Positions 19,505-61,841 of a DNA stretch of 64,000 nt are shown in pieces. Position 1 is the stretch's first letter. Every line of letters begins with the position of its first letter. The stretch covers positions 47,410,384-47,474,383 of the forward strand of contig NC_037093.1 of the NCBI RefSeq assembly GCF_002994745.2, in the 5' to 3' direction. The notes beneath the pieces were generated by a model that was not told the DNA's origin, searched no databases, and saw nothing but the letters and a program-made list of their open reading frames with translations. The position numbers and the translations under genes were made by a program. This DNA is from Rosa chinensis. Lineage: Eukaryota > Streptophyta > Magnoliopsida > Rosales > Rosaceae.

Positions 19505-20566
19505 TAGTTTCCAACCCTTCACTTTAGATCATCTTCTTGATCTTCTTGTTCCATATAGTGAGTTTCTCTTGCTTCACAATATGCTTTGTAGGCGGTGACA
19601 AGTTCTTCACGAGCTCTACAAATGTGTGCCCAATGATCAGACACTCCACATCGAGAATATACATCTCTTTGCTCGAACTCCATTGATTGAGGCGCTTTGA
19701 AAGCGTCATTTAGATGGCTCTTAGTGTTGGTGGCGCCACCAACATGGCCAGAGGCGTTGCCTCCCTCTCTCTTTCCACGTTTACCTCTTCGGTTCCATGT
19801 TCGCCTATTTTGGCGGTTACCTTCCCAAGTAGAGCAATTATAGTCCAGAAGTATACCTAATATTAGGGTTTCGCTCTTGGCGCCCTCTCTTAGAGGTGCG
19901 ACTATAATTGGATTCCGGAATATGCTCTATTTCCACGGATCTCGAATTATAGTTCTTCACAAGGATATTGTCATGCTTTTCAGCGACATTCATAGCTCCA
20001 ATGAGCTCATGAAACCTTGTGATCCGTCTTGCATTAACATCGATTCGATAGTTCTTAGCAACCATCAATACAGAGACGGGGAAGGTAGAGAGAGTCTTCT
20101 CAATCAACATCGCATCTGTGATCTCTTTACCACAGAATTCCATTAAGGATTTAATGTGAAGTGCTTCCGAGTTATAGTCAAGAATTGACTTGAAATCACA
20201 GAAGCCGAGGCTATGCCATCTCACTTCTAGGTCAGGAAGCAAGGAGTCACGGACGTTGCCAAATCTTTCTTCGAGTGAGAACCACAGCCTTCTGGGGTCT
20301 TCTTCATTCATACACTCGTACTGGAGCGAATCATCCATATGACGAGTCATTAGGATGATGGCTTTCGCCTTATTTGCCTCTAAGGCTGCTCTATTTGCTT
20401 CCAAAGCTTGAGCTTGCTCAACAGTTATCACGTCCTGGCTAGGCTCGAGAATCATATCCAGGATTCCATCAGCCTTGAGATGCTGGCGGATATCACGAAC
20501 CCACCTGTGATATCCAGAGCCAGTTGTTCCCAATGGAGCAAAGTCCAATTTGTTCAGGTTACTCAT
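19505..20566 (-). pseudogene. Copia A gag with zinc knuckle
   Basis: The frame starts MSNLNKLDFAPLGTTGSGYH and is open for 243 codons to 19838. It has the UBN2-type core: WVRDIRQHL, ILMTRHMDDSLQYEC, EDPRRLWFSLEERF and RFHELIGAMNVAEKHD. A frame change then leads to the zinc knuckle at about 19700-19510 (RCGVSDHWAHIC). There its first Cys is Tyr, so the CCHC set is incomplete; copy C has the intact set. The frame could also start 30 codons earlier at 20656, but copy C supports the MSNL start. Gag packages the element RNA. Confidence 0.85.
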
Positions 20567-21057
20567 CCTGAAAGAGAACAAGAAATTAGGGTTAGTTTCG
20601 GAGCGAAATAGGCTACCACGAAAACATATGAAATTTCTGAGCGTAATCGCTTCCAAGAAATTAGGAATTTCGGAGCGTAGTCGCTTCCAAGAAATTCGAT
20701 TCCAAGAGATATTGGATTAGATCGAAACAATGATGTAAGTGGTCGATCATAAATTCTCTACAAACTCTAAGTTTGGAGATCTCAACAAGCTCTAAGCTTG
20801 GAGTGAGCACGAACCCCCACAGTTCGGCTTAATTTGGTCTCCCCTATAATGAAGAAAGGGGGGGTAGAAGAAGGGAGGTTGCAAGTCCCCGAGAAAAAGA
20901 AGCGAAAAAGAATAAAAAAAAACTTAAAAAACGGGAACTTTTAGTAAACCATACCTTTTAGGATTGCAGAGCGTATTCGATCCTTATTGTAGGATTGCAG
21001 ACGAGCTTCAGTCCTAGGTGAATCAAACTTGTTGAAATTCGGAGCAAATTCGCTTCT

Positions 21058-22787: not shown

Positions 22788-25938
<3,151 letters not shown>

Positions 25939-35410: not shown

Positions 35411-36450
35411 TTAGATCGAGATCGCCATCTTGATCTTCTTGTTCCATGTAATTTGCTTCCCTTGCTTCACGATACGTCTTGTATGCATTTGCAACATTCT
35501 GGGGTACTGTACATGCTTTGGCCCAATGTTCAGTTGATCCACATCAAAAACAAACATCATTATGGTCAGGCTCCCTTGATCGAGGCGCCATTGGGGCGCG
35601 ATTTGGACAACCAATGCTCTTGGTGGCGTTACCACCATGGTCGGAGGCTCCTCCTCTCTCTCTTCACACGTTGACCTCTACGGTTCCGTGCACGCCTCTC
35701 TTGGCGATTTCCTTCCTCTTTAGGGCGAACATATGGACCAGAATGTCCAGAATTGTCCCTACTCTTAGGGTTTCGCTCCTTGCGTCCTCCATTGGGGGCG
35801 TGACTATAGTTAGACTGCGGAATAGACTTAGTTTCCACGGGTCTTGCATTATAGTTCTTCACAAGAATATTGTCGTGCTTTTCAGCTACGTTCATGGCGC
35901 CAATGAGCTCATGAAACCTTGTGATACGCCCTGCATTTACATCAATCCGATAATTCTTTGAAATCATCAGTGCAGAGACGGGGAAGGTAGAGAGAGTCTT
36001 CTCGATCAACATCGTATCAGTTATGGCTTGGCCACAAAACTCCATCAGAGACTTGATACGAAGGGCTTCCGAGTTATAATCAAGCACAGACTTGAAATCA
36101 CAAAAACGGAGGCTATGCCATCGCACTTCTAAATCAGGAAGCAGGGAGTCACGAACGTTGCCAAATCGCTGCTCAAGTTCTACCCATAGCTTTCTTGGGT
36201 CTTCCTCATTGAGGTACTCATTTTAGAGTACGTCATTCATGTGCCTTGTCATGAGAATTATGGATGTAGCTTGTTTTGCTTCGAAAGCAGTAGCTTGCTC
36301 AATGGAGAGCACGTTTTGACCAGGCTCTTGGATGGCTCCCAGAAGTCCATCAGCCTTAAGATATTGGCGCACATCTCGGACCCACCTATGTTATCCTGCG
36401 CCAGTTGTCTCTAGTGGAACGAAGTTCAACTTGTTCAGGTTACTTATCCT
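35411..36450 (-). pseudogene. Copia D gag with broken zinc knuckle
   Basis: The core RFHELIGAMNVAEKHD and FPVSALMISKNYRIDVN lie at 36126-35629. Upstream, the start codon position reads ATA and an in-frame stop occurs near 36221. In the zinc-knuckle region (about 35560-35510) one residue of the CCHC stretch is a TGA stop. Family as for copy A, with clear divergence in gag. Confidence 0.83.
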
Positions 36451-46669: not shown

Positions 46670-47722
46670 TAGATCATTTTCTTGATCTTCTTGTTCCATA
46701 TCGTGAGCTTCTGTTGCTTCACAATATGCTTTGTAGGCGGTGACAATTTCTTCACGAGCTCTACAAATGTGTGCCCAATGACCGGATACTCCACATCGAG
46801 AACATACATCTCTTTGCTCAGACTCCATTGATTGAGGTGCTTTGAAAGAGTTAGATAGATGGCTCTTAGTGTTGGTGGCGCCACCAACATGGTCAGAGGC
46901 GTTGCCTCCCTCTCTCTTTCCACGTTTACCTCTTCAGTTTCATGTTCGCCTATTTTGGCGGTTGCCTTCCCAAGTAGAGCGATTATATAGACCAGAAAGT
47001 CCAGAAATATCCCCAAGATTAGGGTTTCGCTCTTGGCGCTCTCTCTTAGAGGCGCGACTATAATTGGATTCCAGAATATGCTCTGTTTCCATGGATCTCG
47101 AATTATAGTTATTCACAAGGATGTTGTCATGCTTTTCAGCGACATTCATAGCTCCAATAAGCTCATGAAACCTTGTGATCCATACTGCAGTAACATAGAT
47201 TTGATAGTTCTTAACAATCATCAATGCAGAGACCGGGAAGGTAGAGAGAGTATTCTCAATCAACATCGCATATGTGATCTCTTTACCACAGACTTCCATT
47301 AAGGATTTAATGGGAAGTGCTTCCGAGTTGTAGTCAAGAACTAACTTGAAATCACAGAAGCCGAGGCTATGCCATCTCACTTCTAGGTCATAAAGCAGGG
47401 AGTCACGGATGTTGCCAAATCTTTCTTCGAGTGAGAGCCACAGCCTTCTGGGATCTTCTTCATTCATAGACTCGTACTGGAGAGAATCATCCATATGACG
47501 AGTCATTAGGATGATGGCTTTCGCCTTATTTTCCTCTAAGGCTGCACTATTTGCTTCCAAAGCTTGAGCTTGCTCAACAGTTAGCATGTCCTGGCTAGGC
47601 TCGAGAATCGTATCCAGGATTTCATCGGCCTTGAGATGCTGGCGGATATCACGAACCCACCTGTGATATTCAGAGCCAGTTGTTCCCAATGGAGCAAAGT
47701 CCAATTTGTTCAGGTTACTCAT
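46670..47722 (-). pseudogene. Copia C gag, longest frame of the family here
   Basis: The frame starts MSNLNKLDFAPLGTTGSEYH and is open for 260 codons to 46940. It has the same UBN2 core as copy A. A frame change leads to an intact zinc knuckle, CSRCGVSGHWAHIC (about 46805-46765), and the tail MEQEDQEN. This is the only one of the three copies whose CCHC residues are all present. Confidence 0.85.
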
Positions 47723-48674
47723 CCTGAAAGAGAACAAGAAATTAGGGTTAGTTTCGGAGCGTAAAAGGTTACCACGTAAACATTTAAATTTCTGAGCTAG
47801 TTGCTCCCAAGAAATTATGAATTTCTAAGCGTAATCGCTTCCAAGAAATTCAATTCCAAGAGGTATTGGATTAGATCGAAATAATGAAGTAAGTGGTCGA
47901 TCATAAATTCTCTACAAACTCTAAGTTTGGAGATCTCAACAAGCTCCAAGCTTGGAGTGAGCACGAACCCCCACCGTTCGGCTTAATTAGGTCCCCCATA
48001 TGATGAAGAAAGGGGGGTAGAAGAAGGGAGTTTGCAAGTCCAGGAAAAAGAAGAGAAATTGAATTAAAAAAAACTCTAAAAAACAGGAACGTTTAGCAAA
48101 AAATACCTTGAAATAGGTCGCCGGAAAATTTGGCCTAAAAAAGTTGTCGGAAAGTGGCAGGAAAACTTGCCGGAAAAGTCACCGGCAGTCGTTGACCAGC
48201 TGTTGACTGCAGACGTGGTAGTGGGGTCTAGTGCTGACGTGGCTTGCGTCAGTGGGCTGCGGCTTGGGCTTGGCTAGGGCTGCCTCCTCCCCCCCCCCCC
48301 TTTTTTTTTTTTGCCTTTTCTTCTCTTTTCTGCCGGTTTTTTGCATAAGGTTTAGTCGGCCGGTTCACCCACTTTTAGGCCTGTTTTTGTGCTTTTCTTC
48401 CTATTCCTGAATCGTCAGATTGAGAGTTGTCGGCTGACAAAATTTGGTTGAAATTGGATGCCCGGAGGTGGAATATTTGCTGCGGGGTGTATGGAGCTTC
48501 TGGTGGCTAGCTCGGTAGGTTTTCGGCCAGTTCTTCGGGTGGCGCGGCTAGTTCTGGACTCCTGGGATTGAGTGCTTCAAGGTGTGAGGTGGAGGCAGAA
48601 AAGGCTTCAAGGTTTTGTGTTCAGATTCAAGGTTTGGCTATTTATTTCAGGGTTAGGGTTTCGTGCTGATAACG

Positions 48675-51748: not shown

Positions 51749-51917
51749 CGTTATTTGGGCTTTAATCAACTTTCCGCAGTTGATCCGAGCATACATTGAG
51801 CACGTTCATGTGGTCCATGAGATTATCGTTGTCGTCCATCTTCAGCTGGTATAGTTGCCGCTTCAGATGTAACTTGTTGGTCAAACTCTTAGCAAGATAG
51901 AGTTGTCCCAACTTCTC
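51749..51917 (-). pseudogene. Old Copia gag, distal half
   Basis: The minus strand reads KLGQLYLAKSLTNKLHLKRQ, LYQLKMDDNDNLMDHMNVLN and then decays. This is the middle of a Tnt1/Tork-type Copia gag. Its first half is at 56190-56557; the two join in frame if the element 51918-56189 and one copy of TTCTC are set aside. Confidence 0.85.
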
Positions 51918-52160
51918 TATTATGAAATTAAGTGTTAGTTTCCCGGTTTCTATTGATAGGCTTAATATGCACTTTTCAACCTCGTTGAGGAAAATATGTT
52001 AGGTAGATTGAGCCGTAGATGTGCGACACGTGTTGCTATCTGTTATATATACCCTGTAAGCTTGAGAAGAAGGTTATGAATGAAAATCTGCATTTTGTTT
52101 TCTTAGCCTTTTCTCTTAGATTTCTTCTAGTTCTTCTCTGTTGGGGTTAGCACCCTAACA
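51918..52160 (+). repeat. 5' LTR of the chimeric element
   Basis: It starts TA instead of the TG kept in the 3' LTR and ends CCTAACA. A TATA box, CTGTTATATATACCC, lies at about 52036-52050, so transcription would start near 52080 and read into the captured genes. Confidence 0.92.
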
Positions 52161-52176
52161 ACTGGTATCAGAACCC
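52161..52176 (+). promoter_or_regulatory. Primer binding site, initiator Met tRNA type
   Basis: TGGTATCAGA stands two bases after the LTR, the standard plant LTR-retrotransposon primer match. Confidence 0.85.
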
Positions 52177-52439
52177 ACATCATGTGTCCGAGGAACGCTG
52201 GGAATCCACCACCATGCTTTTCAACACTGCCACATCCACCTGACCTCGATGAAGTGAGGAGGAAGATGATCCAAATCGCTAGAGCACAGGCAGCTGCGTG
52301 GCGCCGTGAACTCCAGAATACTATGGCGTCGTTCCAGTCTGAGTTACTAAACAAGTTGAAGCAATTTCTCTTGGAACTCATAGCTCAGGTGATGGAGCCG
52401 TAGGGGCCGACTTCGTCAGTACCGATCATATCTCTACCA

Positions 52440-54650
52440 ATGACTCAGTCTGTCTCTTCGGGGCTGCAACTTGGGACCATCGATTCGTATAAACCACACC
52501 AACAGCTGTACATGATGTCGAATCCACCACCATTACCAACTGCTGCGGATCAACACCAGCCTCCTGTCTATAACGTCGTCCAGAACCTGACAAGTTTGCT
52601 GGCCCACAGAGATCGAGTCGTGACTCCTCCACCACTAGCACAGTTCACTTCCAGCTCGCTTCCTCTGTTGAACGGCGCTCCTCCGCAGATTCACCCACCC
52701 AAAATCCATAGCTCGCGACTCCAAATCAGCTCTCCACCGCTGGCACAACCCACCATGAAGCCTCCTCTGCTCGACGGCGCCATTTCGACTCAGCCGAACA
52801 GTTCCCCTGCATCCTTTTGCTCTGTAAGTGGCACTAACACAAGCGCTTCTAATCCGTTCAATTGTCACAAGGATGATTGTGGTGGTATGGGTTTTGCGTT
52901 TGGTGCTAATGGTATTGATGAGAAATTAGAGAATAGGAAGAGTGTCGAGAAGAGGGCTGAGGTGGCTAGTGGAGATGGTAGAGAGTTCAGTGAGCTTAAG
53001 TGTATCATTGCTAAGCAGGATGAGGGTGGTCTAGTTGAAGATAAGGAGCAGCTTAGCAATGGAATGTCAGAATTTCATGCCCTCCAACTGTTTGATAAAA
53101 TGCCAAAGTTAGATGGGTTGTGCAATGTAAGAAGGAACATTGCTGATGTTATGAGCATTCGTGACAAAGATGATAGAGTTGATAAATCAAATGTGCTTCT
53201 TGGTGATGCTGAATTAAATTGCACTACCCACTTACTTGGTTTGGATGATAATGAAAAAGATGGAAACTGTGAGGGGAGTGGAGAGTTTGGAAACCACAGC
53301 AGGAAGGGACTCGTAGAAGAAAATCTTGTGGCAAATCCTTTTGAGAAGATTTTTGCTTGTGTACCTGAAGTTAGTAACCAGGGACTCTCAATTAATAATT
53401 TCGACCTGAATGGAAAGTCTTATCCCCTAATATGGGGAGGAGATGCTACTAATTTCTCTGCTGGAGCTAACTCGGAGATTGCAAGCTTTTGTCCAAATGG
53501 AGCCCTGAATTCACACAAAGTAAAGGGAAAGATTGTTTTCTGTGAAACCATAGACGATGGTTCAGGTGTTTTACTAGCCAATGGTATTGGTACAATTATG
53601 GCTGATTCATCTTCCTCGGATTTGGCACTTAATTACCCGTTAGCAGCAACTGTGGTTAAAATAGGAGATGGACAGAGAATTATGAACTATATCAGATCAA
53701 CGGCGAATCCAAATGTAACAATTCTTGTTGGCGAGACGGACATGGATATCATGGCACCTGTTGTTGTGTCATTTTCTTTTAGAGGATCCAACCCCATAAC
53801 CCCAGATATCCTCAAGCCTGATTTGACCGCCCCTGGTGTTAACATACTTGCTGCTTGGTGTCCAGTGGCACCGCCTTCCATTTACGAAGATGACACCAGG
53901 AGTGTCGAATTTAATGTTATCTCTGAGACATCCATGTCTTGCCCTCATGCTAGTGGTGCTGCAGCTTATGTCAAGGCTGCACATCCAAATTGGTCTCCTG
54001 CTGCAATCAAATCTGCACTCATGACAACAGCTCATGTCCTGGACCCAAATAGGTATGAAGACCTCGAATTCGCTTATGTCCAGAATGAAGAACACATGGA
54101 GACGTTGATGTTCTTGTGTGCAAGTTCAGAATTTGGCACTTTGGCTACTCTAAATGCATGGTTGAATGGTAATTTTCTGCTTTTACCTCTTGAGAACAAA
54201 TTGAAGAAAATGAATTTGCTTCTTACTGATAAGTTGGGGAAACGGGACAAAATTATGAAAATGATGTTTGTTGACAATTGGGAGAGCTGGAAGTATTTAG
54301 TAATTGCTGCAAATAAGAAGGGTACTGAAGATTTGCATTCAAATTTTCTTGAAAACCATTTGGAGCTAATTGTGAAGTGTTTGCGATATGTTATGTCTAC
54401 CTGGGATGCACTTTACACAATGCAGAAGCTGGGATTCAAATTCTATTGTCAGCATTTATACCAGCTTTTGTCACCTTTGAGTAAATTAGAAGGAGATTTG
54501 GAGGATTTGAATAGGGACAGAAATCTAAATTGGGAAAGAATGACTAAGATCTATGTTAGTCCACAACTCTGCAATTCTACTAAAGCTCTTGAAATAGACT
54601 GTCTCATAGCTTTAAAGTTGGTGTTGTTACTGCCTTTTATACCATTATAG
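52440..54650 (+). CDS. 736-codon chimeric frame with cucumisin-like subtilase segment
   Basis: Residues 1-150 are Pro/Ser/Gln-rich (NPPPLPT, VVTPPPLAQF), perhaps gag-like or from a host gene. Residues 150-314 are acidic and unrecognised. Residues 315-537 are a subtilase: SINNFDLNGKSYPLIWGGDA (before the PA domain), HKVKGKIVFCE, then PDILKPDLTAPGVNILAAW and TSMSCPHASGAAAYVKAAHP. The catalytic Ser is kept at about residue 498, but the preceding Gly is Glu. The Asp and His parts of the catalytic triad, signal peptide and prodomain are missing, so protease activity is not expected. Residues 538-736 (FAYVQNEEHMETL, NAWLNGNFLLLPLENKL, LENHLELIVKCLRYVMSTWD) look like another gene's exon that I cannot name. 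The frame may be luck or may mean selection; expression is unknown. Confidence 0.7.
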   Translation: MTQSVSSGLQLGTIDSYKPHQQLYMMSNPPPLPTAADQHQPPVYNVVQNLTSLLAHRDRVVTPPPLAQFTSSSLPLLNGAPPQIHPPKIHSSRLQISSPPLAQPTMKPPLLDGAISTQPNSSPASFCSVSGTNTSASNPFNCHKDDCGGMGFAFGANGIDEKLENRKSVEKRAEVASGDGREFSELKCIIAKQDEGGLVEDKEQLSNGMSEFHALQLFDKMPKLDGLCNVRRNIADVMSIRDKDDRVDKSNVLLGDAELNCTTHLLGLDDNEKDGNCEGSGEFGNHSRKGLVEENLVANPFEKIFACVPEVSNQGLSINNFDLNGKSYPLIWGGDATNFSAGANSEIASFCPNGALNSHKVKGKIVFCETIDDGSGVLLANGIGTIMADSSSSDLALNYPLAATVVKIGDGQRIMNYIRSTANPNVTILVGETDMDIMAPVVVSFSFRGSNPITPDILKPDLTAPGVNILAAWCPVAPPSIYEDDTRSVEFNVISETSMSCPHASGAAAYVKAAHPNWSPAAIKSALMTTAHVLDPNRYEDLEFAYVQNEEHMETLMFLCASSEFGTLATLNAWLNGNFLLLPLENKLKKMNLLLTDKLGKRDKIMKMMFVDNWESWKYLVIAANKKGTEDLHSNFLENHLELIVKCLRYVMSTWDALYTMQKLGFKFYCQHLYQLLSPLSKLEGDLEDLNRDRNLNWERMTKIYVSPQLCNSTKALEIDCLIALKLVLLLPFIPL

Positions 54651-54653
54651 TTA

Positions 54654-55300
54654 CAGGGTTTGGCTGCTGTTGAGGACAAGTTGAAGCAAGGAGGCATTTC
54701 TGACACGATTGGTGGAGAACTTGAGTTATTAATGCCACTCTTATTCTCTGGTGTCAAGTCCTATGGTAACACTCACTTTTATATCTGCTATGTGGTTAGG
54801 AACTTATCCCACAAGTATCAAGCAGCTCAGTTACAAAATCAAAGGTAGAAACAAAACAGTGCATCGGGAGAAAATAAGAGATATTTTTTTCTCTTTCGAA
54901 GAATACTCTTCCCTCATTTTATTTCAGAGCTTGTTAAGGGAGATCAACAGCTTCAATTTCTCTTAACTTCTGTTTTTATGTTTTTTGTGGTAGAAGCATT
55001 TACAAGTTTAGAGTTGCTGCAAAATGAATCTCAGATTGATCAAGCAGTTGCCAAGGCTATTGTTGCCAGGTTCTCATATGGGGGTCTATCCGAACTTGTT
55101 GCAAGTTGGCTATACGTTTCTTTGAGGTATTGTTTTCCTTTAGCTATCCCAATGGTTACTGCTTTTCTCCTTTATGTGGCATCAGTTATGTGTGTTACTG
55201 TCCTTGGTGTGATGATAACCATAGATAAAGCACACATTGATGAATTTGCTATGAAAGCTAAGAAGAAGCAACTTGGTATTGTTTTTGGGATTATATGAGG
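54654..55300 (+). pseudogene. Further captured coding-like pieces
   Basis: After the stop at 54650 the text GLAAVEDKLKQGGISDTIGG and LELLMPLLFSG continues, then LELLQNESQIDQAVAKAIVARF and a hydrophobic stretch (55100-55230). Breaks between them look like unspliced introns or frame changes (for example after VKSYG at about 54765). They may belong with the U-box gene that follows. I do not recognise the family of these pieces. Confidence 0.45.
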
Positions 55301-55917
55301 AGAAGCTTTTTTTAACCATATTGCTGCAGCATGGAATTTTGAAGGTGGGAGGAGAATTTATAGATGATGGAAACTTCATTGCTCAGTTAATAAATTCAGA
55401 GCACCAAACATGCCCCAAAAGTGGACAGAAAATTATTCACATGGCCCTTCTACCTAACTATGCACTGAAGAGTCTATTGCATCAATGGTGTGAGGAAAAC
55501 AAGTGCCTGGTCTCCCTCTCACGTGCTTTTGAAATTGCATTTGGTGGGAAGAACAATGTTGCTGAAGTTATTGCAGACATTGATGGCAAAATCTATGATA
55601 TCTCAGTTATTATGCAGTTGGTGATGGTTTTGTCCACTAGGCCTATGGATGAAGTGAAGGGCATCATGTGTATTGTGCATGAATCTCTTGCAGGTAATCC
55701 AACTGGGAGATTTGATCAATTCAAATTCAAAGCATTTGTTTTGATGATCACTTTTGAGGGTAAGCTGCCATGCAAGTGGTTGTTTGGGCTTCCATTTTCC
55801 AGAATGGTATTTCTCATATGCAGGTTGATTGATTGGCAAATGTGTCAGGGATATCCTGTGGTTCTCAAAATTGCTATTGTGGCTCTGCTTGCGATGCCTT
55901 TCATATTTGAAACTTGA
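55273..55917 (+). pseudogene. Captured U-box fragment
   Basis: An open frame of 214 codons contains TCPKSGQKIIHMALLPNYAL and KSLLHQWCEEN (55408-55500), the second half of a plant U-box, the E2-binding fold of PUB-type ubiquitin ligases. The first half of the U-box (the D-P-V and T-Y motifs) is absent. Text before it (GGEFIDDGNFIAQLINSE) and after it (NNVAEVIADIDGKIYDISV) is unassigned. With half a domain it should not act as a ligase. It ends 29 bases before the 3' LTR. Confidence 0.7.
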
Positions 55918-55929
55918 GGACAAGTTCTG

Positions 55930-55945
55930 CAAAAGGGGGATGGAT
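55930..55945 (+). promoter_or_regulatory. Polypurine tract of the chimeric element
   Basis: AAAAGGGGGATGGAT lies directly before the 3' LTR. Confidence 0.8.
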
Positions 55946-56189
55946 TGTTATGAAATTAAGTGTTAGTTTCCCGGTTTCTATTGATAGGCTTAATATGCAC
56001 CTTTTCAACCTCGTTGAGGCAAATATGTTAGGTAGATTGAGCCGTAGATGTGCGACACGTGTTGTTATCTGTTATATATACCCTGTAAGCTTGAGAAGAA
56101 GGTTATGAATGAAAATCTGCATTTTATTTTCTTAGCCTTTTCTCTTAGATTTCTTCTAGTTCTTCTCTGTTGGGGTTAGCACCCTAACA
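55946..56189 (+). repeat. 3' LTR of the chimeric element
   Basis: 244 bp, TGTTATGAAATT to CCCTAACA, followed by TTCTC. Confidence 0.93.
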
Positions 56190-56557
56190 TTCTCCCACAG
56201 AGCCGACGGAGAATCTTCATCCATAACATTGTTGATAATGTTATCAGCTATATAGAGTCGTATCGTGCTAATACATTGTGACTTTAGCTCCTCTCACTTA
56301 TCATCTTTCATTCTTTCTAGCTTCCCATCCTTGCCTTTCAAAGCTTTAACCAAGCCTTGTTGGACAAGAATATCTTTTACTCTCCTCTGCCAAAGAGTAA
56401 AACTGTCTTTGCCATCAAACTGCTGAATTGCAAAACTCTTTGTTGTAATCATGGTGCCCTGAATTTCAAACGAACCGCCACAGATTTGAACCAAAGTTCT
56501 TATATCACTTGTTGGGATTTTAACCCCACGAACGAACCGAGATTCAGGATTAGACAC
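56190..56557 (-). pseudogene. Old Copia gag, proximal half
   Basis: The minus strand frame starts at 56557 and includes KSFAIQQFDGKDSFTLWQRR and VKDILVQQGLVKALKGKDGK, a typical Copia gag start. A TGA at about 56294 follows KDDK, after which the text goes on as IRLYIADNIINNVMDEDSPS and ALWE, up to the insertion site. Confidence 0.88.
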
Positions 56558-57037: not shown

Positions 57038-57294
57038 CACATGAAAGTGGACAAGTCTCTCCTATTACAGCTCCCAACCAAAATCTACGTTTCGGTCGAC
57101 AAAGGCACAGCATGTGCTTGGTAGCAAAAGCCAGTCGCTCTCCACTTGGCTCCCACTGCTATCCACTTGGCCCTCACACGCACGGTGCTCCGATCTCCGA
57201 TCCCGATCCAGTGGCAATCTCGTTATTCCACCCCAAAACCCAGTCCCATTTCCTTTCCCCCCAACTCCCTCCTCGGTCCCATCGACCCCAAATT

Positions 57295-57304
57295 CTTATA
57301 TAAC
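57295..57304 (+). promoter_or_regulatory. TATA box of the FatA gene
   Basis: CTTATATAAC lies about 100 bases before the ATG at 57399, followed by CT-rich leader DNA (57320-57390). It fits a plant core promoter. Confidence 0.6.
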
Positions 57305-57398
57305 ACACACCTTTTGCAAGTCTCACATCCTTCAATTGTTTCGGCCGTTTTTTTGGTCCCAAACCACTTTCCCTTCTCTCCTTTCGGCACCAAAAACA

Positions 57399-59857
57399 AT
57401 GATGAAGCTTTCCTGCAATGCGGTGGACCAAATCCACGGCGGGGCCCAATGCCGCTTCTTGGGCCCGCAGAAGTCCCGGCCCGGCTTCGCTCTCCGCCGG
57501 AAAGAAGCTCCGCCTTCGATTGTTACGTACAGCTGCGGTGGTTCGTCTTCGTCGAGGAGGGGGATTGTGGCGGTGGTGTCGGACCGGGGAGCCGTGGGCG
57601 CCGAGAATGGGCCGGGTCGGGTCGAGCCCATCAGCCTGGCGGACAGGCTGAGGCAGGGGAGCTTGGCGGAGGACGGCAAGTCGTATAGGGAGTGCTTTAT
57701 AGTCAGGAGCTATGAGGTTGGGATGAACAAGACTGCTACCGTGGAGACGATTGCCAATCTGTTGCAGGTGAGAATGAGCTCAATTTCGATTCAATGTGTC
57801 TCAAAAGGGTGCAAAGTTTCTATTGATTTGAATTGTTTGGGGCAAATTTGAGGGCTTTTGGTGGATTCAGTTTGCTGCTTTCATACATGCATTTATCGAG
57901 TTTTGGAATTCTGTGATTTATTGCTCCAGCTGCATAATTTATTTACCTCGGTACTTTCACTATTGTATTCTGAGTTCTATACTCTTAATGGCAGTAAAGC
58001 CTTGATTGCTACAAGTTCAAAAATCATCTGCGATAGCTTGTTAGATATTTGATCACTGCAATTTCGAGTGTTAGTCAAGTGATTTTCGTTTAAAGTTTCG
58101 ACCTTGAACAAGATTAAAGACATTGTGGGAGGATTATCCAAGTTGGTTAATTTTAGGGAGGAGGAAGGCTGATTAATTACATATTGTTGGTGTTGTTGTC
58201 ATGAGTTTGATACAATATTTACCTTGAGGATTGGTAATGTAGGAGGTTGGATGCAACCATGCTCAAGTTGTGGGATTTTCAACCGACGGGTTTGCAACGA
58301 CAACCACCATGAGGGAATTGCATCTAATATGGGTCACTGCTCGCATGCACATTGAAATCTACAAATATCCAGCTTGGTGGGATTTCTTGTCTGTATTTTA
58401 GTTCTGGTTTGGATTTGTATCCAGCAAGTGTAATCTTATAATGCTGGTATGTGCAACAGGAGTGATGTTGTTGAAATAGAAACGTGGTGCCAAGGGGAAG
58501 GGAGAATTGGAACTAGACGTGATTGGATACTTAAGGACTATGCCACTGGGCAAGTCATTGGAAGAGCGACAAGGTGCATGGTGTTTCTGTTTATTATTAT
58601 ACGAAATCTTCAAACATGTTGGAGAAAAAATGGTATCAGTATAGAAAGCAATAGATTTTTTAAAATACTTTTATTCTATACTGCAGATAACATGGTTATT
58701 GTATTGAGCCAGCTTCCTCATACTCTGTGATGTTATAGTTTGTCTAGGCTGTTCGTGGCAGATTCTTAATCTTTTAGTCACTCCCTTAGCTATTGTAGCT
58801 TTGAAAGGAGACATGGTTACTGATGCCTCTTGATCATTTAGACGCTCTTAATCTGGCTATTTGCCAGAACATTTACCACTGCAATATTTTTTCAATTTTT
58901 TAATTCTGCCATCTCTCTTGAAGATCAAATGTGAGGATATTTTTGAATGTTTTTCTGCAGTTCTATTGTTTATCACGAAGTTGTGTGGTTCTGTGATGTA
59001 TTCTGAAACTTGACCATCTCTATTGCATGGTTTCAGTAAGTGGGTGATGATGAACCAAGACACTAGGAGGCTTCAGAAAGTCAGTGATGATGTTCGCGAA
59101 GAGCATCTAGCTTTTGCTCCACGAGAGCTAAGGTAAGAACCCTGTTTCTTTTTGCAGGCCTTAGTTATCATTCCTTTATATGGTTTGCATACTAACTTGC
59201 CTGCATGCACACAAATGCTGCACAATCTTATAATTGGTTTTTTGTATGGCATTGGTAGATTAGCATTCCCAGAGAAGAACAATAGTAGCTTGAAGAAAAT
59301 AGCTAAACTAGAAGATCCTGCTCAGTATTCCAGACTAGGACTCGTGGTAAGGTCTTATGGTCCTATGGTTGATTCTAAGTTCTTAATTTTATTCAGTGCT
59401 CTCAGTATACCTTTATATTTCTCAGCCAAGGAGAGCAGACCTGGACATGAACCAGCATGTTAATAATGTCACCTACATAGGATGGGTTCTAGAGGTCGGT
59501 TACATGTCTGTTCATTTAGAATTGTATCATCTGTTTTTAAGGCCATGAATTATTGTTCGTCTCATAAGAGATATTCTCTTCTTACAACAGAGCATGCCTC
59601 AAGAAGTCATTGATAGCCATGAACTCCAGACTATCACCTTAGATTACAGGCGAGAGTGTCAACAAGATGACATAGTCGATTCCCTTACTAATGTAGAAAA
59701 TGCTGAAGCGAGTTTGAAGGGAACAAATGGGTCTCCTGCTGCAACAGAAAATCAAAATGACTACCATCAGTTTTTGCATCTACTGAGAATATCAGGCGAT
59801 GGATCAGAAATAAACAGAGGACGCACAGTGTGGAGAAAGAAACCGGCAAGACGATAA
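57399..59857 (+). CDS. FATA: Oleoyl-ACP thioesterase, plastid (FatA), complete
   Basis: The enzyme cleaves oleoyl-ACP in the plastid stroma and so releases free fatty acid for export. Seven exons: 57399-57767, 58243-58376, 58460-58573, 59037-59132, 59259-59346, 59426-59494 and 59591-59857. Borders are GT-AG and phases agree, giving 1137 nt and 378 residues. The first ~60-70 residues are a Ser/Arg-rich plastid transit peptide. Two hotdog-type repeats follow. Landmarks are YEVGMNKTATVETIANLLQ, GFSTDGFATTTTMR, VVEIETWCQGEGRIGTRRDW and PAQYSRLGLVPRRADLDM. The catalytic Asn and His are in MNQHVNN (Asn276, His278) and the catalytic-site Cys is in RRECQQDD (Cys313). The C-terminus is extended and hydrophilic. 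The frame is clean, so the gene is probably functional. A second ATG lies one codon downstream. Repeats reach to within about 260 bp of the TATA box. Confidence 0.95.
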
Positions 59858-61121: not shown

Positions 61122-61841
61122 GGGAAAAATACTGTTTAGTCCCTGTAGTATGTCTTTATCCTCGTTTCAGTCCTTGCCTTTCTGATTTAATCCCTAAAGT
61201 CTATGAACTCAAAATTTTCAGTCCAACTAGTCCATTCCCTCCATTTGCTCTGGTTGTTGGCTGACGTGTCAATTATCTACTTGCCAGCTCAGCGCCTCAT
61301 AAGACCCCGATTTTGTAAAGTGGCAAGAATGCCCCTGCTTCAGTTTCTTCCAAAATTTCCTCCTCTCTTCTTTCTTATCTTCTTTCTCCCTCTATCCAGG
61401 TCATCAATACAAGAGATTTTTTCTCCTTCGCCGTTGTGGGTGTACTAAGAAATTTCTCAGACTGGGATGAAGAGAAAAGGGGTGATGGTACAGCGGTGGG
61501 ATGACCAGTGCTAGTCGGTGGGTGCGCCAACCATGACAATTGTTGAAGTTTGTCGACCATAGAAAGAGAAACCATCACCACCAAGCTCACCAGCAACAAA
61601 TTTGAAACCTCCTTGAACCCACCAACAAGGGCATTCTCGTCACTTTACAAAATCGGGGTCTTACGTGGCGCTGAGCTGGCAAGTAGATAACTGACATGTC
61701 AGCCAGCAACCGGAGGAAATGGAGGGAATGGACCAGTTAGGCTAAAAATTTTGAGTTCAGGGACTTTTGTGATTAAATTAGAAAGGCAGGAACTGAAAGA
61801 GGACGAATGCATACTTCAGAGACTAAACAGTACTTAGTCCC
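61122..61841. mobile_element. Long-TIR element, 720 bp, MULE-like or foldback
   Basis: Inverted repeats of about 220 bp make up most of the element: TACTGTTTAGTCCCTG and GAACTCAAAATTTTCAG on the left, TCTACTTGCCAGCTCAGCGCC and AGACCCCGATTTTGTAAAGT further in, each mirrored on the right. A unique centre of about 240 bp carries only chance frames. Ends GGGAAAAATACTG and GGGACTAAGTACTG; flanks share AAATA (61117-61121 and 61842-61846). A 9-bp duplication is not clear, so the superfamily is open. Confidence 0.75.

Follow-up and report, generated by a model that had tools for sequence, protein, structure and literature searches.

How does a long terminal repeat (LTR) retrotransposon that encodes no polymerase come to hold pieces of several host genes, and why does one of its reading frames stay open for 748 codons? 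The question is raised by a 4.27-kb element at positions 51918..56189 of a 64,000-nucleotide stretch of Rosa chinensis (contig NC_037093.1, positions 47,410,384 to 47,474,383, forward strand), referred to here as the window. The element was compared with the 515-Mb R. chinensis assembly, in which related loci are labeled L0xx and contigs C1-C7, and with four public Rosa protein records (P0001, P0005, P0007 and P0088). We consider it probable that the window element is a pol-less, non-autonomous member of a rose family built by serial capture of host coding sequence, and we read the pattern as the product of template switches, with selection acting to keep the frame open and acting little on its content.

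A recent LTR retrotransposon without pol

The element has the parts of an LTR retrotransposon in their expected places. Two LTRs on the plus strand, detected as a self-repeat and aligned with each other, lie at 51918..52160 (5' LTR, 243 bp) and 55946..56189 (3' LTR, 244 bp), and are flanked by identical 5-bp target-site duplications, TTCTC, at 51913..51917 and 56190..56194. The primer-binding site TGGTATCAGAACC at 52163..52175 (plus strand), which we take to match initiator tRNA-Met, differs at one base from TGGTATCAGAGCC, the version found in all nine siblings printed with their flanks. The polypurine tract CAAAAGGGGGATGGAT, at about 55930..55945 on the same strand, directly precedes the 3' LTR, and siblings carry a purine tract in the same position. 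A preliminary description of this DNA had placed the LTRs, the duplication and the purine tract correctly, and its estimate of roughly 2% LTR difference agrees with the four substitutions in 242 aligned sites and the 1-nt indel measured here (Kimura two-parameter distance, K2P, 0.0168). The left LTR begins with TA and the right one with TG. At assumed rates of 1.3e-8 and 7e-9, the divergence corresponds to about 0.6-1.2 Myr; the insertion is recent. When the two flanks are joined, an unbroken Copia-type gag frame reappears on the minus strand, so the insertion was precise. In line with the earlier claim of an interior lacking pol, a Pfam scan of five open reading frames (ORFs) of the element found no retroelement polymerase domain, that is, no reverse transcriptase, RNase H or integrase. 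The element is thus a non-autonomous LTR retrotransposon.

A subtilase piece captured from spliced mRNA

The clearest host segment is a subtilase piece at 53379..54078 (plus strand; Pfam Peptidase_S8, 3.7e-16), which aligns with a gene at C7:17691735-17692709 in four exon blocks, the longer three at 95.4, 95.5 and 96.3% identity and the 53-nt fourth at 88.7%, with 33 differences in 700 nt overall. The matched part of the donor has three introns, all with GT-AG ends (85, 110 and 80 bp), and all three are exactly absent from the element; the piece was therefore taken from spliced mRNA of this host gene. The donor locus is an ordinary gene with further subtilase and fn3_6 exons around the matched part (Pfam), the next-best subtilase matches among those scored reach 73 and 68%, and the piece occurs only in the window element among the 40 of 70 candidates scored. 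Host gene transduction, proposed in the preliminary description together with a search for a donor and its introns, is thereby borne out.

At the joints of this piece, family text shared with L016, L030 and P0007 (53203..53376, plus strand) ends in a PPR remnant, the donor exon proper runs from 53382 to 54078, and the other side of the interrupted PPR remnant follows at 54079..54104 (plus strand) with QNEEHME, the reading phase being equal on both sides. In sibling L016 the PPR text is continuous (PEVSIFSWN ... SGYFQNEDHME), so that the subtilase stands in place of a middle part of the PPR text that L016 retains. The joints would be the expected trace of two template switches, one out to a host mRNA and one back to the element RNA.

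The captured piece covers part of the catalytic domain only, and because residues have changed in its SGTSM motif (G to E) and its SSRGPN motif, both presumably conserved in subtilases, it is unlikely to act as a protease. Its 20 synonymous and 13 nonsynonymous differences from the donor give a ratio of nonsynonymous to synonymous divergence (dN/dS) of 0.20. Purifying selection on the captured piece was considered as an explanation and dropped, given the altered residues in these motifs and given that the host branch alone could produce the synonymous excess.

Other host-like pieces in the interior

Beyond the subtilase, the interior alternates family-shared text with further host-like segments, all on the plus strand. 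Segments common to the family lie at 52869..53172 (about 70-87% identical to siblings), at 54110..54314 (91-92% to L012 and L022) and at 54927..55368 (86% to L023). Two shards, at 54450..54558 (87%, in the phase of the main frame) and 54587..54954 (83%), match an apparent host exon at C1:67049600-67051150 that is open for 516 codons, with a 663-nt in-frame deletion between them. No Pfam family matched this apparent second host exon (L051), whose protein we take to be NBAS/MIP2-like. The third family segment includes a shard of a PQQL zinc protease at about 55049-55106, with 11 of 12 residues identical to R. rugosa PQQL; for the longer PQQL piece of a sibling, C2:6035528-6036364 is a candidate spliced donor.

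A U-box piece, with the text that follows a thioredoxin-like domain in L050, occupies 55364..55628 in phase 0; its Pfam match (0.0018) falls under the curated cut-off (18.9 versus 21.4 bits). Its longest genomic match, at 93 and 91%, is C6:3446300-3448000, the locus L050, which appears to be a sibling mosaic with U-box and thioredoxin-like (presumably nucleoredoxin-like) sequence in a single frame. This locus was tried as the U-box donor gene, with a 310-bp intron, and rejected: since it is a mosaic that also holds a family-shared block, the 310-bp gap is no evidence of intron loss. A shorter match at C1:60164318-60164454 (93%) could be a U-box gene. The U-box piece named in the preliminary description is therefore present, but it is shared with L050 and not a private capture of the window element.

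Taken together, the element holds fragments of more than one host gene, as exons only and in the sense direction: the subtilase piece with its three lost introns, the apparent second host exon and the sibling-shared U-box piece. No ordinary host locus lacking LTRs was seen with the same interior; host matches covered single pieces.

A family with fixed ends and differing middles

Is the window element a single case, as the comparison with Bs1 of maize in the preliminary description implied? The transduction stands, but the leader and interior are shared with dozens of places, and the element is one member of a family. At least 41 matches came from the first genome query, in which the best 40 of 54 candidates were scored, and places sharing some piece, with donor loci set aside, fall into 93 clusters of 10 kb, a rough, hand-compiled figure that may include host genes and is no count of elements. 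Among 20 stretches around family matches taken for closer comparison, ten have a family LTR pair (L012, L014-L018, L021-L023 and L026). The other ten comprise L011, with a nested Copia LTR pair, L019, a composite of LTR plus leader, and eight without a family pair. Sibling LTR distances (K2P) run from 0.0032 in L017 to 0.0515 in L014, and the youngest siblings, L017 and L026, each show one LTR difference in about 300 bp. Duplications of 5 bases were read by eye in the flanks of L012, L016, L022 and L026; none was seen by eye in the printed flanks of L017. Seven further loci (L013, L025, L030, L034, L037, L044 and L050) were placed in the family by shared DNA, with no LTR pair shown. Members have the leader, primer site and purine tract in common, and their middles differ, as a search for further copies, suggested earlier, was meant to reveal.

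The shared blocks are strictly oriented: in 23 elements whose direction was set from the leader, the LTR or the main frame, 733 block pairs (1474 rows, at 1e-6) were in sense and none in antisense, as recombination through RNA would predict.

Several loci have features of their own. L011:4153-8113 holds a Copia-like element, with 97% identical LTRs and frames that resemble gag and pol by eye, which appears to be nested in a family member; it was considered as the autonomous partner and rejected as a nested insertion. L019:2679-5993 holds a tandem pair of LTR-plus-leader units, spaced at about 2.2 kb, as would be seen had two members shared one LTR or had one copied part of its own sequence. 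Three related copies with an L026-type leader lie within 190 kb at C3:35946398, C3:36055646 and C3:36131325.

Eleven host domain families across the family

The content of the siblings was surveyed with Pfam, using 28 ORFs from related loci, chosen for length, and two public Rosa proteins. In the first set, 6 of 10 ORFs had a match at 0.01: WD40 in L015 and L017, NT-C2 with PPR in L016, PPR in L017, enolase in L018, and V-ATPase subunit a with HMG-CoA reductase in L026. Matches were found in 9 of 10 ORFs of the second set, with an ABC transporter in three L013 ORFs, NT-C2 and a DEAD/DEAH helicase with a Ty3-type integrase tail in L025, a 3'-5' exonuclease in L034 and L037, GH81 under the cut-off in L044, and U-box with Thioredoxin_8 in L050. 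The third set gave one match in eight ORFs (NT-C2, L030), and both proteins matched (P0007, GH81; P0005, ABC/PDR plus chromodomain). All PPR matches fell under the curated cut-off. Counting Peptidase_S8 of the window element, eleven host families reach the cut-off in this genome, the others being WD40, NT-C2, enolase, V-ATPase, HMG-CoA reductase, ABC transporter, DEAD, exonuclease, U-box and Thioredoxin_8. Pieces of at least two host genes are present in several loci (the window element, L016, L025, L026 and L050). A PDB search with L015 confirmed WD40 and PPR text only.

Intron loss recurs outside the subtilase. Exon edges were read for the subtilase and V-ATPase donors only. Like the subtilase piece, the V-ATPase piece of L026 is free of donor introns: it lacks two of two GT-AG introns of C5:66641724-66642568, with edges read by eye. 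The PQQL piece of L016 is near-contiguous over a 616-bp donor gap, and its NT-C2 piece aligns with C7:16192766-16193957 in four blocks separated by donor gaps of 102, 257 and 123 bp, the 257-bp gap leaving 33 L016 bases unmatched. The candidate PPR donor C5:12598045-12598753 has gaps of 205 and 96 bp, and a further candidate, C4:59691181-59691545, behaves similarly. In L053 the blocks that flank the V-ATPase piece of L026 stand 51 nt apart and the piece is absent, making L053 a candidate for the pre-capture state; against this, no LTR was shown at L053, and in L026 part of the left block occurs a second time.

Family frames are also found in public protein records. P0088 (R. chinensis) lies, with every residue identical, within the open frame of L015, and P0001 within that of L022; P0001, P0007 and P0088, which are family frames or very similar to them, are recorded as hypothetical, endo-glucanase and WD40-like factor proteins. 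P0005 from Rosa sericea (1028 aa) joins the family leader to a large part of a PDR-type ABC transporter and to a chromodomain in one annotated protein, so gene capture of this kind extends beyond R. chinensis.

Reading frames longer than in simulated sequences

A leader frame common to the family opens the coding text of the window element at 52131..52403 (plus strand, phase 2) and ends in an in-frame stop at 52401-52403. It is followed in the same phase by a 748-codon stop-to-stop ORF at 52404..54650 and, further downstream on the same strand, by a 220-codon frame that includes the U-box piece (55255..55917; ORF and Pfam scan). The leader, the subtilase, both shards of the second host exon and the next shared block are all in phase 2. 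In 100 order-1 Markov simulations of the element, the longest sense frame was 191 codons, against 748 in the real sequence. Across 12 elements the longest sense frames span 220-1287 codons, with a simulated maximum of 197 (100 simulations each), and reach 907 in L015, 988 in L026, 1241 in L022 and 1287 in L016, the last two being open over essentially the whole interior.

Length changes point the same way. Of 293 changes of at least 9 nt between colinear blocks, 182 were multiples of three, against about 98 had the share been one third; these counts cover all pairs of 18 elements, which share history and are dependent, and serve as indications rather than tests. By pair, L016 versus the window element gave 8 of 9 and L016 versus L022 gave 7 of 7. 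Ten long-frame elements (the window element, L012, L013, L015, L016, L017, L019, L022, L023 and L025), grouped only after the leader-concordance result had been seen, account for 105 in-frame changes in 144. Among small indels, 138 of 372 in the interiors were multiples of three, versus 22 of 138 in the LTRs. Nine leaders were found, and the three pairs long enough gave leader dN/dS values of 0.61, 0.40 and 0.42. A hand count of 33 concordant segments in 38 from six elements was picked after the fact and is not used as evidence. In our reading, the open frame, more than its content, was favored during the spread of the family.

Ancestry and a model of serial capture

A Ty3/Gypsy chromovirus is the likely parent of the family, on thin support: the L025 locus and one R. 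sericea protein. In L025 a Ty3-type integrase tail (SH3_Tf2-1, Integrase_p58_C) follows the helicase piece in frame, in P0005 a chromodomain follows the ABC transporter, and a 68-residue alignment of the two tails shows 49% identity. Both could themselves be captures.

The model proposed here starts from what is observed, namely the cis parts, the recent insertion, the spliced-mRNA origin of the subtilase, the continuous PPR text of L016 and the siblings with other mosaics. Particles supplied by an autonomous partner, probably of Ty3 type, would package element RNA along with host mRNAs. While copying the minus strand, the reverse transcriptase would jump onto a spliced host mRNA and then back, so that an exon block in sense orientation would be exchanged or added between the constant leader and primer site on one side and the constant purine tract on the other. 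In later rounds, blocks would be added, swapped or deleted, while selection on the chimeric frame would keep it open and leave the captured proteins little protected. Why a frame should be kept is a matter on which we venture a suggestion with more doubt than conviction: the lineage may need a long translated frame for its own mobility, but no particular protein, for example to avoid nonsense-mediated decay or the generation of small interfering RNAs, or to have its RNA packaged in cis.

Several observations weigh against serial capture as set out here. An autonomous partner was not found: no reverse transcriptase appeared in the ORFs scanned by Pfam, and no LTR-based search was made. The integrase-tail sequence occurs in one of 51 loci (L025), the other 50 and the window element being without it, and at the 3' end of the frame a chromovirus tail or chromodomain is seen in L025 and P0005 only. 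The synonymous divergence between the subtilase piece and its donor (dS 0.13) lies far above the LTR divergence of 0.017; the true donor may therefore be another allele or a paralogue, and owing to this disagreement the capture is left undated. Five bases at the left subtilase joint (53377-53381) are unexplained, the final three of which, CAG, match the end of the donor's upstream intron, and may reflect chance or a template unspliced at that one site. The main frame itself is interrupted by in-phase stops at 52401, 54648, 54846 and 55296, and the U-box block is out of phase; the 736-codon frame reported earlier through the subtilase is confirmed, at 748 codons stop to stop, with these four stops and the shifted U-box as qualifications.

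The frame evidence is where the strongest competing explanation enters, namely that long frames are the passive result of stitching coding exons, with captures being random and out-of-frame products uncounted. The ORFs submitted to Pfam were picked by length, which favors in-frame joins; the pairwise length counts are not independent and are uneven between groups, 9 of 16 for L018, L026, L034, L036 and L037, and 2 of 8, without any excess, for L014, L021 and L024. Measured from the leader start, concordance in leader-bearing pairs came to 63 of 124, modestly above one third in pairs that are dependent, and small interior indels in pairs with the older L014 or L021 were multiples of three in 40 of 137. 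Passive stitching sits less well with L016 and L022, open across essentially their entire interiors, with the length changes, which were counted regardless of ORF length, and with the leader dN/dS values below one in all three pairs. We hold it to be unlikely, though well within consideration.

The remaining explanations fare worse. A single Bs1-like transduction of the subtilase, with the other host-like text being chance or degenerate pol/gag, would agree with the confinement of that piece to the window element among the candidates scored and with its young LTRs; however, other pieces match the apparent host exon or siblings with host domains of their own, and the different host domains within one LTR family already contradict this scenario, which we regard as very improbable. 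Alternatively, a DNA transposon (Pack-MULE or Helitron) or segmental DNA repair could have acquired the pieces, with LTRs flanking later. This draws on a type of capture described as common in plants in the portions of the literature available, but introns are absent for both donors read, shared blocks are in sense, and the element has an intact duplication, LTRs, primer site and purine tract together with a precise empty site; such an origin is scarcely credible. The several frames in Rosa protein records could also suggest a domesticated chimeric gene family, mobile by chance, whose proteins serve the host. Against this highly doubtful possibility stand the partial subtilase piece with its changed motif residues, and the turnover of content between siblings while the frame is kept. 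We therefore retain serial capture into a pol-less rose family as the preferred reading.

Other features of the window

Several Copia-type copies with similar gag frames are present elsewhere in the window on the minus strand (19838-20716, with a Pfam match to Retrotran_gag_2, 35629-36222 and 46940-47824), spaced 11-16 kb apart and accompanied by 20 repeats (D1-D20). Less than 1 kb downstream of the element, an open frame at 57045-57851 gave no Pfam match; we take it to resemble the N-terminus of a plant acyl-ACP thioesterase. Inverted repeats at 24071-24450 (arms of 145 nt, 90% complementary) and 61165-61798 (173 nt, 88%) are possibly small DNA transposons or hairpins.

Relation to known elements and significance

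Terminal-repeat retrotransposons in miniature (TRIMs) are very short elements without coding frames, and large retrotransposon derivatives (LARDs) have a large, conserved non-coding interior; the window element is 4.27 kb long with a 748-codon frame, and its interior is coding-derived and differs between members. The absent subtilase introns, the LTR ends and the target-site duplication also set it apart from Pack-MULEs and Helitrons, whose ends were not scanned for in the interior. Bs1 of maize, reportedly studied by Elrouby and Bureau in 2001 and 2010, is likewise an LTR element with host gene segments joined in an ORF. In the part of the account available, Bs1 has three captured host genes and a hybrid ORF (PMC13317346); unlike Bs1, and as compared by description only, the rose family has dozens of related places, eleven host domain families and differing mosaics. 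Gene-carrying TRIMs, GmaRetroS15 among them, are also described from soybean and Medicago, and in two of these elements the exons come from more than two genes. As far as the accessible text describes them, they resemble the rose family in exon-only captures, 5-bp duplications, pieces of three genes in one element and multiplication after capture, whereas they measure 1.17-1.45 kb (30 elements in 7 subfamilies) and rose interiors extend to about 5.3 kb with frames of up to 1287 codons (PMC4717578).

Fragment-bearing LTR elements of maize, rice and sorghum similarly hold host fragments from many events, as listed for rice and sorghum (PMC3726574) and surveyed in maize, where, in the portion available, 425 LTR elements had fragments and none, under the survey conditions, had more than one nuclear gene (PMC2774510); several rose loci, in contrast, hold pieces of at least two. 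Additional ORFs of plant LTR elements are also extra coding sequence inside the element, but in the excerpted account they accompany gag-pol, and transduced ones exist in one or few copies (PMC7264820). With Ty3/Gypsy chromoviruses the family shares the integrase C-terminal tail of L025 and the chromodomain of P0005 beside captured text, while reverse transcriptase, RNase H and the integrase core are absent from the ORFs scanned. The rose genome paper, in the part available, puts potential repeated host genes at 5.8% and chimaeric repeat consensus at 1.9% (PMC6786968), classes which, at a guess, could include this family. None of the titles listed in the literature searches, whose coverage left out most subscription journals, dealt with this rose family. 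The family is an extreme variant of the Bs1/TRIM kind, and a new one.

Host capture by plant LTR elements, as described in the literature available in part, is mostly of single genes in one or few copies, and the rose family makes it serial. Its members are multi-gene mosaics with donors that can be matched exon by exon, with siblings as candidate before and after states and with some very young insertions, which offers a natural experiment on how reverse transcriptase stitches unrelated mRNAs and on whether transposons supply new in-frame exon combinations. Annotation is affected as well, because at least two frames (P0001 and P0088) are recorded publicly as rose proteins. If the more doubtful suggestion of a frame needed for mobility is true, the family would be a self-renewing exon shuffler, its frame refilled with spliced host mRNAs, that steadily provides roses with new in-frame multi-gene chimeras.

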